Of a DNA stretch of 33,648 nucleotides, positions 1,139-31,091 are shown piece by piece (the stretch's first letter is position 1; each line of letters opens with the position of its first letter). The position numbers were made by a program, and so were the translations under genes. The DNA is from an uncultured Eubacteriales bacterium (GTDB lineage Bacteria > Bacillota > Clostridia > Oscillospirales > Acutalibacteraceae), in the NCBI GenBank assembly GCA_900314795.1, contig OMWP01000024.1:1-33648 (forward strand). Direction: 5' to 3'. Below the pieces are notes generated by a model. The model saw only the letters and a program-made list of their open reading frames with translations, was not told the DNA's origin and searched no databases.

Positions 1139-1212
1139 GCAGATGTAGTTTAGTGGTAGAACTTCAGCCTTCCAAGCTGACCGTGTGGGTTCGATTCCCA
1201 TCATCTGCTCCA
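1139..1212 (+). tRNA. tRNA-Gly (anticodon TCC)
   Basis: A full cloverleaf: acceptor GCAGATG / CATCTGC, anticodon stem TCAGC / GCTGA with loop CTTCCAA (TCC), T-loop TTCGATT, discriminator T and encoded CCA. It decodes GGA. It has its own promoter and a UUCG-loop terminator. Confidence 0.95.
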
Positions 1213-1264: not shown

Positions 1265-1292
1265 TCAGATGATGGAAATCGAAGGCGTATGC
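1265..1292 (+). repeat. inverted copy of the tRNA-Gly 3-prime half (remnant of tRNA-linked element)
   Basis: Bases 1265-1282 (CAGATGATGGAAATCGAA) are the reverse complement of tRNA-Gly bases 1190-1207 with one mismatch in 18. They run directly into GGCGTATGCC, resembling the GGCGACCGTGCC that follows the inverted tRNA copy behind tRNA-Ser (11962) and tRNA-Pro. The rest of the element (core hairpins, direct CCA-end copy) is not visible before the next gene at 1407. Confidence 0.65.
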
Positions 1293-10643: not shown

Positions 10644-11756
10644 ATGGATCCTATCGGACTTTATCTGCATATCCCGTTTTGCGACGGCAAATGCGCTTAT
10701 TGCAATTTCTTTAGCCGTTGTCCGCATACGGGTAGTTCTGAACTAACTGAATATACATCGTATTTGATCGGCAATATCGAAGCATGGAGCAAAAAAATCG
10801 ACCGTCCGGTTGATACTGTCTATTTCGGCGGAGGCACCCCTTCCCTGCTCGGACATGATCGCCTGATTCGTATTCTGGATACTATATATCGCTCTTTTGA
10901 CGTCGTCGATCATGCTGAGATCACGGTGGAGGTCAATCCATCCTCGACGGATGAACTTGATTTTGCACAGATGAAGCGGGCGGGCTTTAATCGCTTATCG
11001 ATCGGTTTGCAGAGTGCCAATGAGAACGAGTTGAAGCGCCTCGGTCGCCGTCACAGTGTGGATGATGCATATCGTACCGTAAAACGTGCGCAAATAGCGG
11101 GATTCGATAATGTTTCGTTAGATGTGATGCTCGCGATTCCCGAGCAAACGATCGCTTCATTGGACAAGACGTTGGAATTCTGCGCGTCCTGTCAGGTGCA
11201 GCATATTTCTTCTTACATTCTGAAAATCGAGGAAGGTACACGATTCTATCATATGAAAGCTCAGCTGTCGCTGTTTGATGACGATGAACAGGCGGCGTTC
11301 TATGAGCATACCGTGCAAAAGCTCGCTGCGTTGGGCTTTGAGCAATATGAGATATCCAACTTCTCCCTAAAGGGTCGTGAGAGCCGTCACAACCTGCATT
11401 ACTGGCGTGATGAAGAATACCTGGGACTCGGACCCTCCGCCCATTCCTTTATCGACGGGAAGCGTTTTTATTATGACAGCGATTTTCAGCGGTTTTATGA
11501 GAACCGGATCTGTGATGAATCCGACGGCGGTGACAGTGACGAATATATCATGCTGGCGCTTAGATTAACGGAAGGTTTGAATTTTATAAAATATCATAAT
11601 CGATTCGGACATGCTGTGAGTGATAAAATGATCTTCGCGGCAAAGAGATTAGAGCAGCAAGGATTATGTATCGTGAATGATTCAGCGATCTCATTGACCG
11701 TAAAAGGTTTTCTTGTTTCCAATGCGGTTATTGCCTATTTGTTAGAAAACACTTGA
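10644..11756 (+). CDS. hemW: radical SAM heme chaperone HemW
   Basis: A 370-residue radical SAM protein of the HemN/HemW group. The start MDPIGLYLHIPFCDGKCAYCNF carries the 4Fe-4S ligands Cys13, Cys17 and Cys20; GGGTPSLL binds SAM; RLSIGLQSANENELKRLGR and NVSLDVMLAIPEQT are typical. The length and the C-terminal HemN-type domain (ISNFSLKGRESRHNLHYW) fit HemW, a heme-binding chaperone, rather than the longer coproporphyrinogen dehydrogenase HemN, which has an extra N-terminal segment. The start follows TTGAGGAGTAGCT. Its stop codon TGA lies inside the -35 box of the tRNA-Ser promoter. Confidence 0.93.
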   Translation: MDPIGLYLHIPFCDGKCAYCNFFSRCPHTGSSELTEYTSYLIGNIEAWSKKIDRPVDTVYFGGGTPSLLGHDRLIRILDTIYRSFDVVDHAEITVEVNPSSTDELDFAQMKRAGFNRLSIGLQSANENELKRLGRRHSVDDAYRTVKRAQIAGFDNVSLDVMLAIPEQTIASLDKTLEFCASCQVQHISSYILKIEEGTRFYHMKAQLSLFDDDEQAAFYEHTVQKLAALGFEQYEISNFSLKGRESRHNLHYWRDEEYLGLGPSAHSFIDGKRFYYDSDFQRFYENRICDESDGGDSDEYIMLALRLTEGLNFIKYHNRFGHAVSDKMIFAAKRLEQQGLCIVNDSAISLTVKGFLVSNAVIAYLLENT

Positions 11757-11781
11757 CATTATCAAAAAAACAAAGTAAAAT
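11753..11781 (+). promoter_or_regulatory. promoter of tRNA-Ser, overlapping the hemW stop codon
   Basis: TTGACA (11753-11758; the TGA at 11754-11756 is the hemW stop), 17 bp, TAAAAT (11776-11781). Confidence 0.8.
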
Positions 11782-11802
11782 ATCATTTGCACAAATGAAT
11801 AC

Positions 11803-11891
11803 GGAAGCGTATCGAAGTGGTCATAACGGGCCTGACTCGAAATCAGGTAGTCCTCACGGGCTCGTGGGTTCGAATCCCACCGCTTCCGCCA
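11803..11891 (+). tRNA. tRNA-Ser (anticodon CGA)
   Basis: Acceptor GGAAGCG / CGCTTCC, anticodon stem CTGA / TCAG around CGA, a long variable arm as in serine tRNAs, T-loop TTCGAAT, discriminator G and encoded CCA. It decodes TCG. Confidence 0.95.
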
Positions 11892-11902
11892 TATCAAATA
11901 AG

Positions 11903-11928
11903 GAGTCGTCCATAGGACGGCTCTTTTT
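11903..11928 (+). terminator. terminator of tRNA-Ser
   Basis: A 9-bp stem GAGTCGTCC / GGACGGCTC, loop ATA, then TTTTTCT. The same sequence recurs at 12131-12158. Confidence 0.9.
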
Positions 11929-11945
11929 CTATCAATATAGCGGAT

Positions 11946-12119
11946 AGCGGTGGGATTCGAAGGCGACCGTGCCAAGATGTAAGCGCAAGCGCACATCGCA
12001 GGTACAAACAGTCCGGCGGACTATTTGTAGGGAGAGCGTAGATCGAGCATATCACTTAGCACAATGTTAATATGCGAAATAAAGCACAAATGAAATGCCA
12101 ACATACACCGCTTCCGCCA
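11946..12119 (+). repeat. tRNA-linked element behind tRNA-Ser, unit S1
   Basis: It begins with a 16-base perfect inverted copy of tRNA-Ser bases 11869-11884 (AGCGGTGGGATTCGAA). The core GGCGACCGTGCCAA follows. Hairpin I is GATGT/ACATC (11976-11980, 11993-11997). Hairpin II is TACAAACAGTCC/GGACTATTTGTA with one mismatch (12003-12029). Then comes GGGAGAGCGTAGATC. It ends with a direct copy of the tRNA 3-prime end CGCTTCCGCCA (12109-12119). The core matches the tRNA-Pro units at 29239-29408 and 29607-29776 in reverse orientation. Confidence 0.85.
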
Positions 12120-12130
12120 TATCAAATAAG

Positions 12131-12158
12131 GAGTCGTCCATAGGACGGCTCTTTTTCT
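12131..12158 (+). terminator. duplicated tRNA-Ser terminator
   Basis: Part of an exact duplication of the segment that runs from the tRNA 3-prime end through the terminator (11880-11934 and 12108-12162). Confidence 0.85.
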
Positions 12159-12166
12159 ATCATATA

Positions 12167-12252
12167 GAGCGTAGATCGAGCATATCACTTAGCACAATGT
12201 TAACATGCGAAATAAAGCACAAATGAAACGCCAACATACACCGCTTCCGCCA
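12167..12252 (+). repeat. tRNA-linked element, partial unit S2
   Basis: It repeats the 3-prime half of S1 at a 133-bp offset (GAGCGTAGATCGAGC through CCGCTTCCGCCA) with two substitutions. It lacks the inverted tRNA copy and core hairpins and ends in a third copy of the tRNA-Ser 3-prime end (12242-12252). Confidence 0.85.
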
Positions 12253-12262
12253 TATGAATCAG

Positions 12263-12295
12263 CACGGAGTTTCAGATAGAAGCTCCGTGTTTTTT
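12263..12295 (+). terminator. terminator closing the tRNA-Ser repeat block
   Basis: Stem CACGGAGTTTC / GAAGCTCCGTG (one G-U), loop AGATA, then TTTTTT. Its sequence differs from the two preceding terminators. Confidence 0.85.
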
Positions 12296-12314
12296 ATATT
12301 TCTTATGAAATCCC

Positions 12315-29238: not shown

Positions 29239-29408
29239 TGGTCGAGGTGACATCCGTTTGATCGTTTGGGTAATATCTACCTCGTCTTCGGATCGACGCT
29301 TCCTGACCAGAGTCTGATCTACGCTCTCCCTACAAACAGTCCACAGGACTGTTTGTACCTGCGCGTCGTCGCTTACGCTTGACGCTTGGCACGGTCGCCT
29401 TCAAATCC
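29239..29408 (-). repeat. tRNA-linked element behind tRNA-Pro, unit P1
   Basis: 170 bp. Read on the minus strand: GGATTTGAA (inverted copy of the tRNA-Pro T-arm), GGCGACCGTGCC, hairpin I GCGTC/GACGC, hairpin II TACAAACAGTCC/GGACTGTTTGTA (perfect, plus coordinates 29331-29357), GGGAGAGCGTAGATC, hairpin GAC-TCTG-GTC, and finally TGTCACCTCGACCA, the exact tRNA-Pro 3-prime end. It differs from P3 at only two adjacent positions, inside a hairpin loop. Confidence 0.88.
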
Positions 29409-29415
29409 TTTTCTG

Positions 29416-29572
29416 TGGTCGAGGTGACGACGTTACATAAGGAGATAGCCGACATATCGCATGACGCACGCTGCTTCTGTCTTACCTTTACCTAGCTCCA
29501 CGGGCTAAAAACAGTCCGCCGGACTGTTTTCTTAACGCCCTTTCAAATCCTGTCACATTCCTATCTCGACCA
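29416..29572 (-). repeat. tRNA-linked element, divergent unit P2
   Basis: 157 bp. Both ends carry tRNA-Pro 3-prime sequence in opposite orientation: TGGTCGAGGTGAC on the left; TTCAAATCCTGTCAC, an 8-base insert, then CTCGACCA on the right. The inside differs from P1/P3 but keeps a perfect hairpin AAAACAGTCC/GGACTGTTTT (29507-29530) like their hairpin II. Confidence 0.8.
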
Positions 29573-29573
29573 A

Positions 29574-29606
29574 ATAAAAAAGACCGCAATAGCGGTCCCT
29601 TTTATT
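29574..29606 (-). terminator. terminator between units P3 and P2
   Basis: On the minus strand GACCGC-TATT-GCGGTC followed by six T. Confidence 0.8.
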
Positions 29607-29776
29607 TGGTCGAGGTGACATCCGTTTGATCGTTTGGGTAATATCTACCTCGTCTTCGGATCGACGCTTCCTGACCGAAGTCTGATCTACGCTCTCCCTA
29701 CAAACAGTCCACAGGACTGTTTGTACCTGCGCGTCGTCGCTTACGCTTGACGCTTGGCACGGTCGCCTTCAAATCC
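29607..29776 (-). repeat. tRNA-linked element behind tRNA-Pro, unit P3
   Basis: 170 bp, 168 identical to P1 at a 368-bp offset. It is the copy nearest the real tRNA-Pro. The two differences change the loop of the GAC...GTC hairpin from TCTG to TTCG. Confidence 0.88.
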
Positions 29777-29800
29777 TCCTCTCCGAATTATGTGGATAAT

Positions 29801-29836
29801 AGAAATAGGGACACCCGAATGAGTGTCCCTATTTCT
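29801..29836 (-). terminator. hairpin directly behind tRNA-Pro
   Basis: A perfect 14-bp stem (29801-29814, 29823-29836) with an 8-base loop. The T-tract is short, so termination may be partial. Confidence 0.65.
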
Positions 29837-29837
29837 A

Positions 29838-29914
<77 letters not shown>

Positions 29915-29915
29915 A

Positions 29916-29942
29916 TAAAACAGCCCCGAAAAATATCGGGGC
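29916..29942 (-). terminator. hairpin between tRNA-Gln and tRNA-Pro
   Basis: On the minus strand GCCCCGA / TCGGGGC followed by TGTTTTA. It is a partial terminator or a processing spacer within a tRNA-Gln/tRNA-Pro transcript. Confidence 0.6.
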
Positions 29943-29945
29943 CAA

Positions 29946-30019
29946 TGGCTGCGGAACTAGGATTCGAACCCAGACATACAGAGTCAGAGTCTGCTGTGCT
30001 ACCCTTACACAATTCCGCA
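29946..30019 (-). tRNA. tRNA-Gln (anticodon CTG)
   Basis: Acceptor TGCGGAA / TTCCGCA (U1-A72 as usual for glutamine), anticodon loop CTCTGAC (CTG), T-loop TTCGAAT, discriminator G and encoded CCA. It decodes CAG. Confidence 0.93.
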
Positions 30020-30032
30020 TTGCACTTCTACT

Positions 30033-30060
30033 ATTATAATCAAAAATTCGGATATGTCAA
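30033..30060 (-). promoter_or_regulatory. promoter of tRNA-Gln (and probably tRNA-Pro)
   Basis: On the minus strand TTGACA, 16 bp, TATAAT, 14 bases before tRNA-Gln. No separate promoter is visible for tRNA-Pro. Confidence 0.8.
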
Positions 30061-30098
30061 GTGGTTTTCACATATTTTATTTTTGATTTTTAAATTAC

Positions 30099-31091
30099 CT
30101 ATTTCATAGCGGTGCGGATATCCTCGCCGATGAAATCGAGCCTGTCACAAGCACCGATCAGGCGTGATACAAAGCGCTGGGAGTAGGTCGTGACCAGTTC
30201 TTCAAGCTGTAGATTGGTGCTGATGATCATCGGTTTATTGGCAAGGATCCGGGAATTGAACAGATTATACACGCAGGAGCGCGTGAAATCTGACACAAAC
30301 TCCGTGCCTAAATCATCTAAAATTAACAGATCGCACTTGAGCAATGAGTTAAAGGTATCCTCCTGCTCGTTATAGCGATAGTTGAAATGCTCGCGTTCGA
30401 GCTTTGAGAGGATCTGCGGAGCGGATGTATAGATGACGGACACGCCCTTTTTGATGACCTCGTTCGCGATAGCAAGGCTCAGATGGGTCTTGCCCAAGCC
30501 TGTACCTCCCTTCATCAATATGCTCTTGCTGTGCACATTGAAGGTATCGGCATAGTTGACGCAGTATTGATAGATATTGGTCATCCTGTTGTACGGGATC
30601 TTGCCGAGCACATCGGGTTCTTTGCTGTAATACTCCGTATTGAAGTTCTCAAACGTGCATTCGTGCAGTGGCAGATCGGCGCTGAGCTGTTCGCTCGCAA
30701 CATCCGCCATCAGCTTTTGCAGACACTCGCACACGACGGTACGATTGTTTTCTTCGATATAACCAGTATCGCCGCATTTTGTGCAGTAGTAATGCGGTTC
30801 TAACACTTCTTTGTTGATATGGTGATCTTCAAGCAGCTTTGATTGCTCGTCCTGCAATCGCAGACTCTTTTCGCTCAGCTCTCTGAGCTTTTTATTCTCA
30901 CCGGGTTTATTGGTGACAACGGCTTTTGCAATCGCCGCGCCGATGCTGAGCAGCTCGCTGTTGATCTCACTCAGGCGCGGGATCTCTTGAAAGAGCTGTT
31001 CACGGTTGAAGTCCGCCATCCTCTGCGCCTGCTGACGGCGTTCGGATAAGCGTTCCTTTGCGATATGATAGATTTCCTGTGAATAAGGCAT
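30099..31091 (-). CDS. DnaC/DnaI-type helicase loader ATPase
   Basis: 330 residues. A helical N-terminal region (1-95) is followed by a zinc-binding segment (Cys103, Cys106, Cys121, Cys123: YYCTKCGDTGY...VVCECL) like the DnaI N-domain. The AAA+ ATPase has Walker A MKGGTGLGKTHLS (193-205), Walker B LLILDDLGTE (about 256), sensor 1 IISTNL and the arginine-finger region RFVSRLIGAC. Loaders of this type place the replicative helicase on DNA. It follows the DnaD-domain gene by 33 bases, the usual Clostridia pair. Start: GAGGTAATGCC then ATG. Confidence 0.9.
   Translation of the reverse strand: MPYSQEIYHIAKERLSERRQQAQRMADFNREQLFQEIPRLSEINSELLSIGAAIAKAVVTNKPGENKKLRELSEKSLRLQDEQSKLLEDHHINKEVLEPHYYCTKCGDTGYIEENNRTVVCECLQKLMADVASEQLSADLPLHECTFENFNTEYYSKEPDVLGKIPYNRMTNIYQYCVNYADTFNVHSKSILMKGGTGLGKTHLSLAIANEVIKKGVSVIYTSAPQILSKLEREHFNYRYNEQEDTFNSLLKCDLLILDDLGTEFVSDFTRSCVYNLFNSRILANKPMIISTNLQLEELVTTYSQRFVSRLIGACDRLDFIGEDIRTAMK

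Follow-up and report, generated by a model that had tools for sequence, protein, structure and literature searches.

Structured units behind bacterial tRNA genes carry an inverted arm that follows the T-arm of their own tRNA

Why does the DNA behind a tRNA gene begin with an inverted copy of the 3´ half of that same tRNA? The question is raised by a contig of an uncultured Eubacteriales bacterium (OMWP01000024.1), of which positions 1 to 33,648 form the window analysed here. Behind tRNA-Ser, the 16 nt at 11946-11961 are exactly the reverse complement of 11869-11884, as a preliminary description of this DNA had it. That description also holds for tRNA-Pro(cgg), where matches of 10 nt (29768-29777 and 29400-29409 with 29851-29860) and 15 nt (29542-29556 with 29846-29860) were observed, and for the GGCG that directly follows the arm in the Ser, Gly, P1 and P3 units. 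At tRNA-Gly(tcc), the match of 17 of 18 bases to 1190-1207 was recovered, with its position shifted by one base to 1266-1283. Two parts had been overlooked, namely a palindrome (H1) between the tRNA and the unit, and a terminal direct copy of the tRNA end, including CCA, in the Ser and Pro units. The observation is real, extends beyond the window and is not due to chance.

From 5´ to 3´, the layout comprises the tRNA or tmRNA gene, the palindrome H1, the inverted arm (A´), a structured body, a direct copy (A) and a terminator (Table 1). A´ is the complement of its own tRNA from T54 to about C74, and copy A corresponds to the last 14 nt of the tRNA (63-76). Three units stand behind tRNA-Pro in the window, and one plus a truncated second, which has neither A´ nor the 5´ module, behind tRNA-Ser. 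The Gly(tcc) unit is a remnant, in which no copy A was seen in the window sequence. The A´ match of P2 resumes upstream after 8 extra bases. Open frames run antisense to the tRNAs at 11742-11996 (minus strand) and 29747-30109 (plus strand), and are likely spurious.

Table 1. Positions of the tRNA genes and of the parts of their trailing units in the window.
Feature	Position	Strand	Basis or detail
tRNA-Ser(cga)	11803-11891	+	54-74 = 11869-11889; 63-76 = 11878-11891
H1 behind tRNA-Ser, palindrome/terminator-like hairpin before the unit	11892-11937	+	sequence; hairpin in predicted fold
A´ of Ser unit, inverted own 3´ half	11940-11961	+	16 nt exact at 11946-11961; match continues with one extra base
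Ser unit body, 5´ module with three covarying helices	11962-12105	+	covariance model R1 match 11953-12043
Copy A of Ser unit = own tRNA 63-76 (CACCGCTTCCGCCA), CCA included	12106-12119	+	direct repeat
Second Ser unit, truncated: H1 copy, 3´ half of body, A copy 12239-12252	12120-12252	+	direct repeats
Terminator-like hairpin T2 past the Ser array	12262-12300	+	sequence
tRNA-Gly(tcc)	1139-1212	+	
Decayed Gly(tcc) unit, A´ 17/18, then remnant GGCGTATGCCGACG	1266-1283	+	H1 ~1213-1250
tRNA-Pro(cgg)	29838-29914	-	
H1 behind tRNA-Pro	29799-29837	-	inverted repeat
Pro unit P1	29607-29788	-	A´ 29768-29777 (10 nt), body, A copy 29607-29620
Pro unit P2 and terminator-like hairpin, body shorter	29416-29606	-	A´ 29542-29556 (15 nt); A copy of 13 nt, 29416-29428
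Pro unit P3	29239-29415	-	A´ 29400-29409 (10 nt), body, A copy 29239-29252

In this genome, the same layout was found behind Arg(acg), Leu(caa), Leu(tag) and Ser(gga); remnants lie behind Pro(tgg), Ala(ggc) and Gly(tcc), and many other tRNAs carry no unit. A covariance model of the 5´ module (R1), which was built from 10 copies of this genome (9 distinct), finds 14 copies here and matches 31 of the 36 genomes of the genus, this one included; the other five gave no match to the model. Outside the genus, the model matches 1 of 23 genomes. Among 197 genomes drawn from the order, 12 match, this one included, and the others are weak (best E 3.6e-8, the rest 1e-5 to 1e-3). Four of the 11 loci from these order matches have an upstream tRNA and its own inverted T-arm at 11/13 or better (L415, L418, L424 and L425). 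Two of 66 tRNAs at 29 further loci of the order reach 12/13, a Tyr with a unit (L393) and a Val with none (L413). L415, L418, L424, L425 and L393 are units in other families of the order.

The units stand behind 27 isoacceptors, as counted over the 107 units with an ARAGORN tRNA upstream. The tmRNA genes of three genomes (G012, G022 and G020), recognised by eye, also carry units, and the arm there mirrors the tmRNA 3´ end. A pattern scan of genome contigs returned at least 119 stretches, on 56 of which R1 was run (17 of the first 80, chosen by title, and the last 39). Units are present in 18 of these 56 among the matches listed, all of them in records titled Ruminococcus, Ruminococcaceae, Clostridiales, Clostridia or Oscillospiraceae; unit-bearing records have titles such as uncultured Ruminococcus, Clostridiales or Clostridia, and come from rumen or gut samples. 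None of 61 pattern matches in viral contigs is a unit. The set for quantitative comparison started from 93 and 87 rows; 12 of the 93 were dropped as places under a second locus id, and the 168 entered gave 162 distinct units in 29 genomes, 107 of which have an ARAGORN tRNA within 900 nt. Three without an anchor were dropped, which left 104 units in 28 genomes. Reading of the loci by eye covered part of the units.

A´ matches the tRNA that it sits behind, rather than tRNAs in general. In this genome, 7 of the 37 CCA-ending tRNAs (a set that excludes the Ser of the window) have their own inverted 54-66 within 150 nt at 12/13 or better; shuffled tRNA assignments in the same test gave a mean of 0.36 and a maximum of 3 in 2000 shuffles, and 22 tRNAs in unrelated loci reached at most 10/13. 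Across the 104 units from 28 genomes, A´ agrees with its own tRNA at 16.57 of the 21 positions 54-74, and with other tRNAs at 11.40. The preliminary description had proposed comparing own with shuffled assignments once the common T-loop is set aside, and own matches also win at the variable T-loop positions (4.81/5 versus 3.44 shuffled, maximum 3.65 in 1000 shuffles) and at 62-74 (8.72/13 versus 4.97, maximum 5.53 in 1000). Position 57 of A´ fits its own tRNA in 97% and other tRNAs in 50%, and position 59 in 94% and 34%, respectively. No other tRNA matches as well as the own one in 66 of the 104 units, and none matches better in 81. The remaining 23 lose the match mainly at 64-74 (8.26 of 11 mismatched) and little at 54-63 (0.83 of 10). 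The gapped match by position is 0.93-1.00 at 54-63, 0.64-0.90 at 64-74 and 0.21-0.30 at 75-76.

The match also changes with the tRNA between species. For isoacceptors whose sequence varies from species to species, 256 position comparisons were made: A´ fits its own tRNA in 230, the other tRNA in 17 and neither of them in 9. At positions 57, 59, 60 and 62, it fits the tRNA of its own species in 69 of 72 genome-tRNA-position cases. These results strongly support both the claim that the match tracks the individual tRNA and the proposal that the arm is selected to pair with it. Mismatches have no G-U preference, either between A´ and the tRNA (21 wobble versus 31 A-C) or between A´ and copy A (26 versus 39), which suggests that the fading part of the arm reflects drift. 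Pairing with the tRNA is the best-supported reason for the co-evolution of A´ with its T-arm, and we infer that A´ is kept by selection for this pairing, most simply within a shared precursor.

The body has features of a folded RNA. Among the 9 distinct sequences of the 5´ module, both sides have changed in 13 of the 19 helix pairs, and 96.5% of cells are paired. Over the 72 full units that were aligned, G-U pairs outnumber A-C by 51 to 1 in helix S1, most of this signal being one conserved G-U pair, and by 10 to 1 in helix S0; helix S3 has no such preference (4 G-U, 5 A-C). G-U is thus tolerated and A-C is not in two of the three helices, which favours an RNA of the sense strand and points to a unit body that would be read from that strand. 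Several bodies are modified. A domain of about 110-150 nt (GACGAGAACGACCGCCGCC...) is inserted near the body start at L150, L151, L176, L179 and L210, in several genomes. At L049 (1253-1436, Leu(tag)), a long insert in the S1/S2 region looks like another dispersed repeat. The two Ser(gga) units of L051 differ in their 5´ modules and have nearly identical 3´ halves, a case of module exchange between units.

Copy A was found within 260 nt in 74 of the 104 units (9-of-10 criterion). It starts exactly at base 63 in 46 of these 74, so that the commonest duplication is 63-76, or 14 nt, and by eye it is often preceded by an AAACRTA-like end. The other 30 units comprise 7 that end with the contig, 4 with a match further on and 19 in which copy A is degenerate or absent, indicating that it is not indispensable. 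A´ and copy A can pair with each other (421 Watson-Crick and 26 G-U of 573 cells); the prediction for the whole transcript pairs A´ with the tRNA instead.

This prediction was made at equilibrium for 58 first units with a complete tRNA and copy. The mean probability of the native acceptor stem is 0.91 for the tRNA alone and 0.84 with H1; it falls to 0.03 once A´ is added and to 0.00 in the whole transcript, where tRNA bases 1-7 are predicted to pair with copy A at 0.90 and A´ to hold 54-62 at 0.94. A´ is predicted to take over the T-arm in all 58 transcripts, in agreement with the earlier suggestion of an RNA that opens the T-arm, and copy A to re-form the acceptor stem in 56; as predictions rather than proof, these outcomes are mostly a consequence of the repeats and of equilibrium energies, and the tRNA folds before A´ is synthesised. 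Among the five units from other families, L418, L424 and L425 are predicted to fold alike; in L393 and L415, the predicted partner of A´ lies downstream, and the tRNA is predicted to be kept.

The preliminary description knew of no named element of this kind, which is not quite right. RtT RNA, or rttR (Rfam RF00391), consists of 178-bp repeats behind E. coli tyrT and tyrV and is a stable RNA released from the tRNA precursor. This old, little-understood curiosity resembles the units in its layout, which comprises a tRNA, a spacer, an inverted T-arm, a structured body with a 3-nt-loop hairpin and a direct copy of the tRNA's own 3´ end, in tandem. Each tyrV repeat ends in a 19-nt direct tRNA copy (58-76). 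After the spacer, the tyrV arm (GGGGAAGGAT-GA-GAA) matches its own inverted 54-66 at 11/13. When the first 160 nt behind tyrV are shuffled by mononucleotide, 31 of 20000 shuffles reach this score. The inverted arm of the unit between tyrT and tyrV has one base different. The outer stem of the Rfam RtT model is formed by the inverted arm and the direct copy. The predicted fold of tyrV with its first RtT unit, like that of the units here, pairs the arm with the tRNA and the acceptor 5´ strand with the copy. In contrast to RtT, which follows E. coli Tyr alone, the units of the genus stand behind many tRNAs and tmRNA, have a palindrome after CCA, match T-loop 54-56 too and have a copy that mostly starts at 63. 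No match to RF00391 was found in the window, in L051, L101, L122 and L131 (E up to 5) or in L415 and L418 (E up to 1), whereas the E. coli control scores 137.5 bits. Because they fail the RtT model, the window units are filed as a variant of the RtT kind and not as members. Rfam searches of the window at the gathering threshold, and of L051, L101, L122 and L131 at E up to 5, returned nothing sensible besides tRNA, and in the open-access literature searched, neither such units nor RtT were found described.

The units represent a family of tRNA-trailing structured RNAs that are RtT-like in this sense; it is genus-wide and has relatives elsewhere in the order, in other families. We give an even chance to the reading that they are RtT-like tRNA-trailer RNAs in full, i.e. 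non-coding modules that follow tRNA and tmRNA genes on the same strand and need their arm to pair with the T-arm. The leading mechanism is a cis switch in the precursor. The unit would most likely be transcribed by read-through from the tRNA. A stop at H1 would leave the normal tRNA fold; because H1 is often terminator-like, the unit may be little transcribed. After read-through past H1, both the T-arm and the native strand of the acceptor would be captured by A´, and the acceptor stem with its CCA end would be rebuilt by copy A, enclosing the inserted body. In this way, the unit would be an RNA switch or processing module that rides on the tRNA transcript, and the family must have spread among the 27 isoacceptors and tmRNA, each time gaining a matching A´ and A. 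If this is true, E. coli RtT, an oddity behind one tRNA, becomes one case of a wide RNA class that carries a co-evolving complement of its own tRNA's T-arm; the layout suggests such a broader class of tRNA-pairing RNAs. An address that changes with its target, together with the co-variation of tRNA and module, would make the function directly testable by paired mutations.

Other readings of the same repeats explain part of these data. In group I and group II introns, a guide pairs with the exon, and A´ likewise lies near the 5´ end and is complementary to both sides of a junction, best at 54-63. It is possible, although we consider it unlikely, that the unit is a guide-bearing, intron-like or homing RNA, with A´ as an internal guide over 62|63, 54-62 as the upstream exon and 63-74, repeated in copy A, as the downstream exon; such a unit would insert at 62|63 and may be excised from RNA. 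The frequent start of copy A at 63 (46/74, often after the AAACRTA-like end seen by eye) is consistent with this, as are the predicted whole fold, which puts tRNA 1-7 on copy A, and the copies at 27 isoacceptors and tmRNA that each carry a guide to their own site. However, 63-76 is intact upstream in the ARAGORN tRNAs, which makes splicing unnecessary, no tRNA 1-62 runs straight into a unit without 63-76 in the loci inspected by eye, no Rfam group I or II intron model matches the window or L051, L101, L122 and L131, and copy A is degenerate or absent in 19 of the 104 units. The bodies also bear on both sides of this reading. Pairs with at least 90% identity are found in 9 of 268 comparisons within a genome between different tRNAs, 7 of 191 between genomes at the same tRNA and 7 of 4870 between genomes and tRNAs. 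Nevertheless, the nearest body neighbour lies in another genome behind another tRNA for 64 of the 104 units and in the same genome for 25, which suggests that recent spread is visible in few pairs. No partner protein was identified either: a reverse-transcriptase domain (RVT_1) is present in 15 of 40 genus genomes (2 matches in this one) and an IS110-type transposase in 5 of 40. Still less probable, in our view, is the boldest form of this idea, in which the tRNA is regenerated either by cutting the RNA out between 62 and the copy or by an insertion that the guide directs to 62|63, and the arm is a reprogrammable address that carried the family to 27 isoacceptors and tmRNA. The arm would then hold tRNA 54-62 beside 63-74 of the copy, and bases 1-7 would pair with the copy; if the element moves, the arm would provide a new case of a target site set by base-pairing.

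A retroviral primer-binding site is the complement of a tRNA 3´ half, as A´ is, and tRNA-primed reverse transcription was one of two origins that the preliminary description offered for the arm. This is now very improbable, since the arm skips the last two CCA bases, where the 3´ end of a primer would sit: the ungapped match is 0.16 at 75 and 0.32 at 76, equal to the background (0.16 and 0.32; 104 units). Moreover, no reverse-transcriptase domain was found in several unit-rich genomes (G008, G020, G006, G022 and G016), and the own match is equally good in the 52 units of genomes without a match to the domain and the 52 with one (0.96 versus 0.98 at 57; 0.92 versus 0.96 at 59). Neutral upkeep, by template switching or gene conversion between the arms of a quasi-palindrome, requires no partner gene, and A-H1-A´ does form a long interrupted palindrome. 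We find it improbable; the match peaks far from the centre of the palindrome, stops at T54 beside conserved non-matching bases and at 74|75, and the conserved, covarying body is left unexplained. Of the only three remnants seen in this genome, too few to weigh, two have mismatches in 54-62 by eye. A similarly small chance attaches to the units being DNA satellites of tyrosine-recombinase elements, with the 14-nt copy as a displaced tRNA fragment and A´ as part of an attachment site. Genomic islands that tyrosine integrases insert in tRNA and tmRNA genes leave an intact tRNA and a displaced fragment downstream, and this combination of a regenerated target with a displaced fragment is their mark (PMC4383910); the units likewise have an intact tRNA with a 63-76 copy downstream. 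Displaced tRNA halves at L107, L120, L139, L095 and L255, by eye, suggest that integrases are active in the genus. The units, however, have no integrase or cargo, and their A´-to-A length of 142-188 nt (72 aligned; units above 230 nt left out) has no room for an integrase gene. Protein recognition would leave the tracking of bases 57 and 59 of each tRNA by A´ unexplained, and the inverted tRNA copy and covarying RNA helices with G-U pairs set the units apart from islands. Casposons duplicate a 14-15 bp target near the 3´ end of a tRNA gene (PMC6977970), and the commonest duplication of the units is likewise 14 nt at the tRNA 3´ end (46/74). The units differ in having no genes and no terminal inverted repeats of the casposon kind, and their duplication lies wholly inside the tRNA (63-76), whereas that of the M. 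mazei example overlaps only the last 4 bp of the tRNA (PMC6977970).

That units stand behind so many tRNAs, each with an arm and a copy A that match, implies that the family spread and that the arm was re-made or re-selected. The bodies of the Gly(gcc) and Thr(cgt) units of G020 are 95% alike and the arms differ, that of Thr matching its own tRNA to about 73 and that of Gly at the T-loop end. The body tree requires 54 changes for genome labels and 70 for tRNA labels at fewest, a comparison without a shuffled control that carries no weight. Reverse transcriptase and the IS110-type transposase were rejected as unit partners, as their presence does not track the units. Orphan units were likewise rejected as proof of mobility, as the unit and its tRNA seem to have been separated by the arrival of other elements. 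Several orphans sit behind displaced tRNA 3´ halves that start at the anticodon and probably record the integration of other elements in the anticodon loop. Such halves still carry a unit at L107, L120 (Leu(cag)), L139, L095 (Thr(ggt)) and L255 (Pro(tgg)). At L057 (G000 C28, ~66,000), a unit with an Ile-like arm follows the end of an open frame that by eye resembles a large serine recombinase; CCACCATAT is present on both sides, and we take this to be an element that entered between the tRNA and the unit.

A second kind of repeat was observed behind tRNAs at L046 (Met(cat)), L022 (Thr(cgt)) and L024 (Asn, after a stretch that is 5S-like by eye). Here the 3´ part of the tRNA is copied with an AAAGGTC-like stretch in place of the T-loop; terminator-like sequence separates the copies, which are in tandem behind Met. 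At L229, tRNA-Arg(acg) has no encoded CCA (GGCGCGCTTTT), and CCA is present in the downstream copy behind another unit of the same locus.
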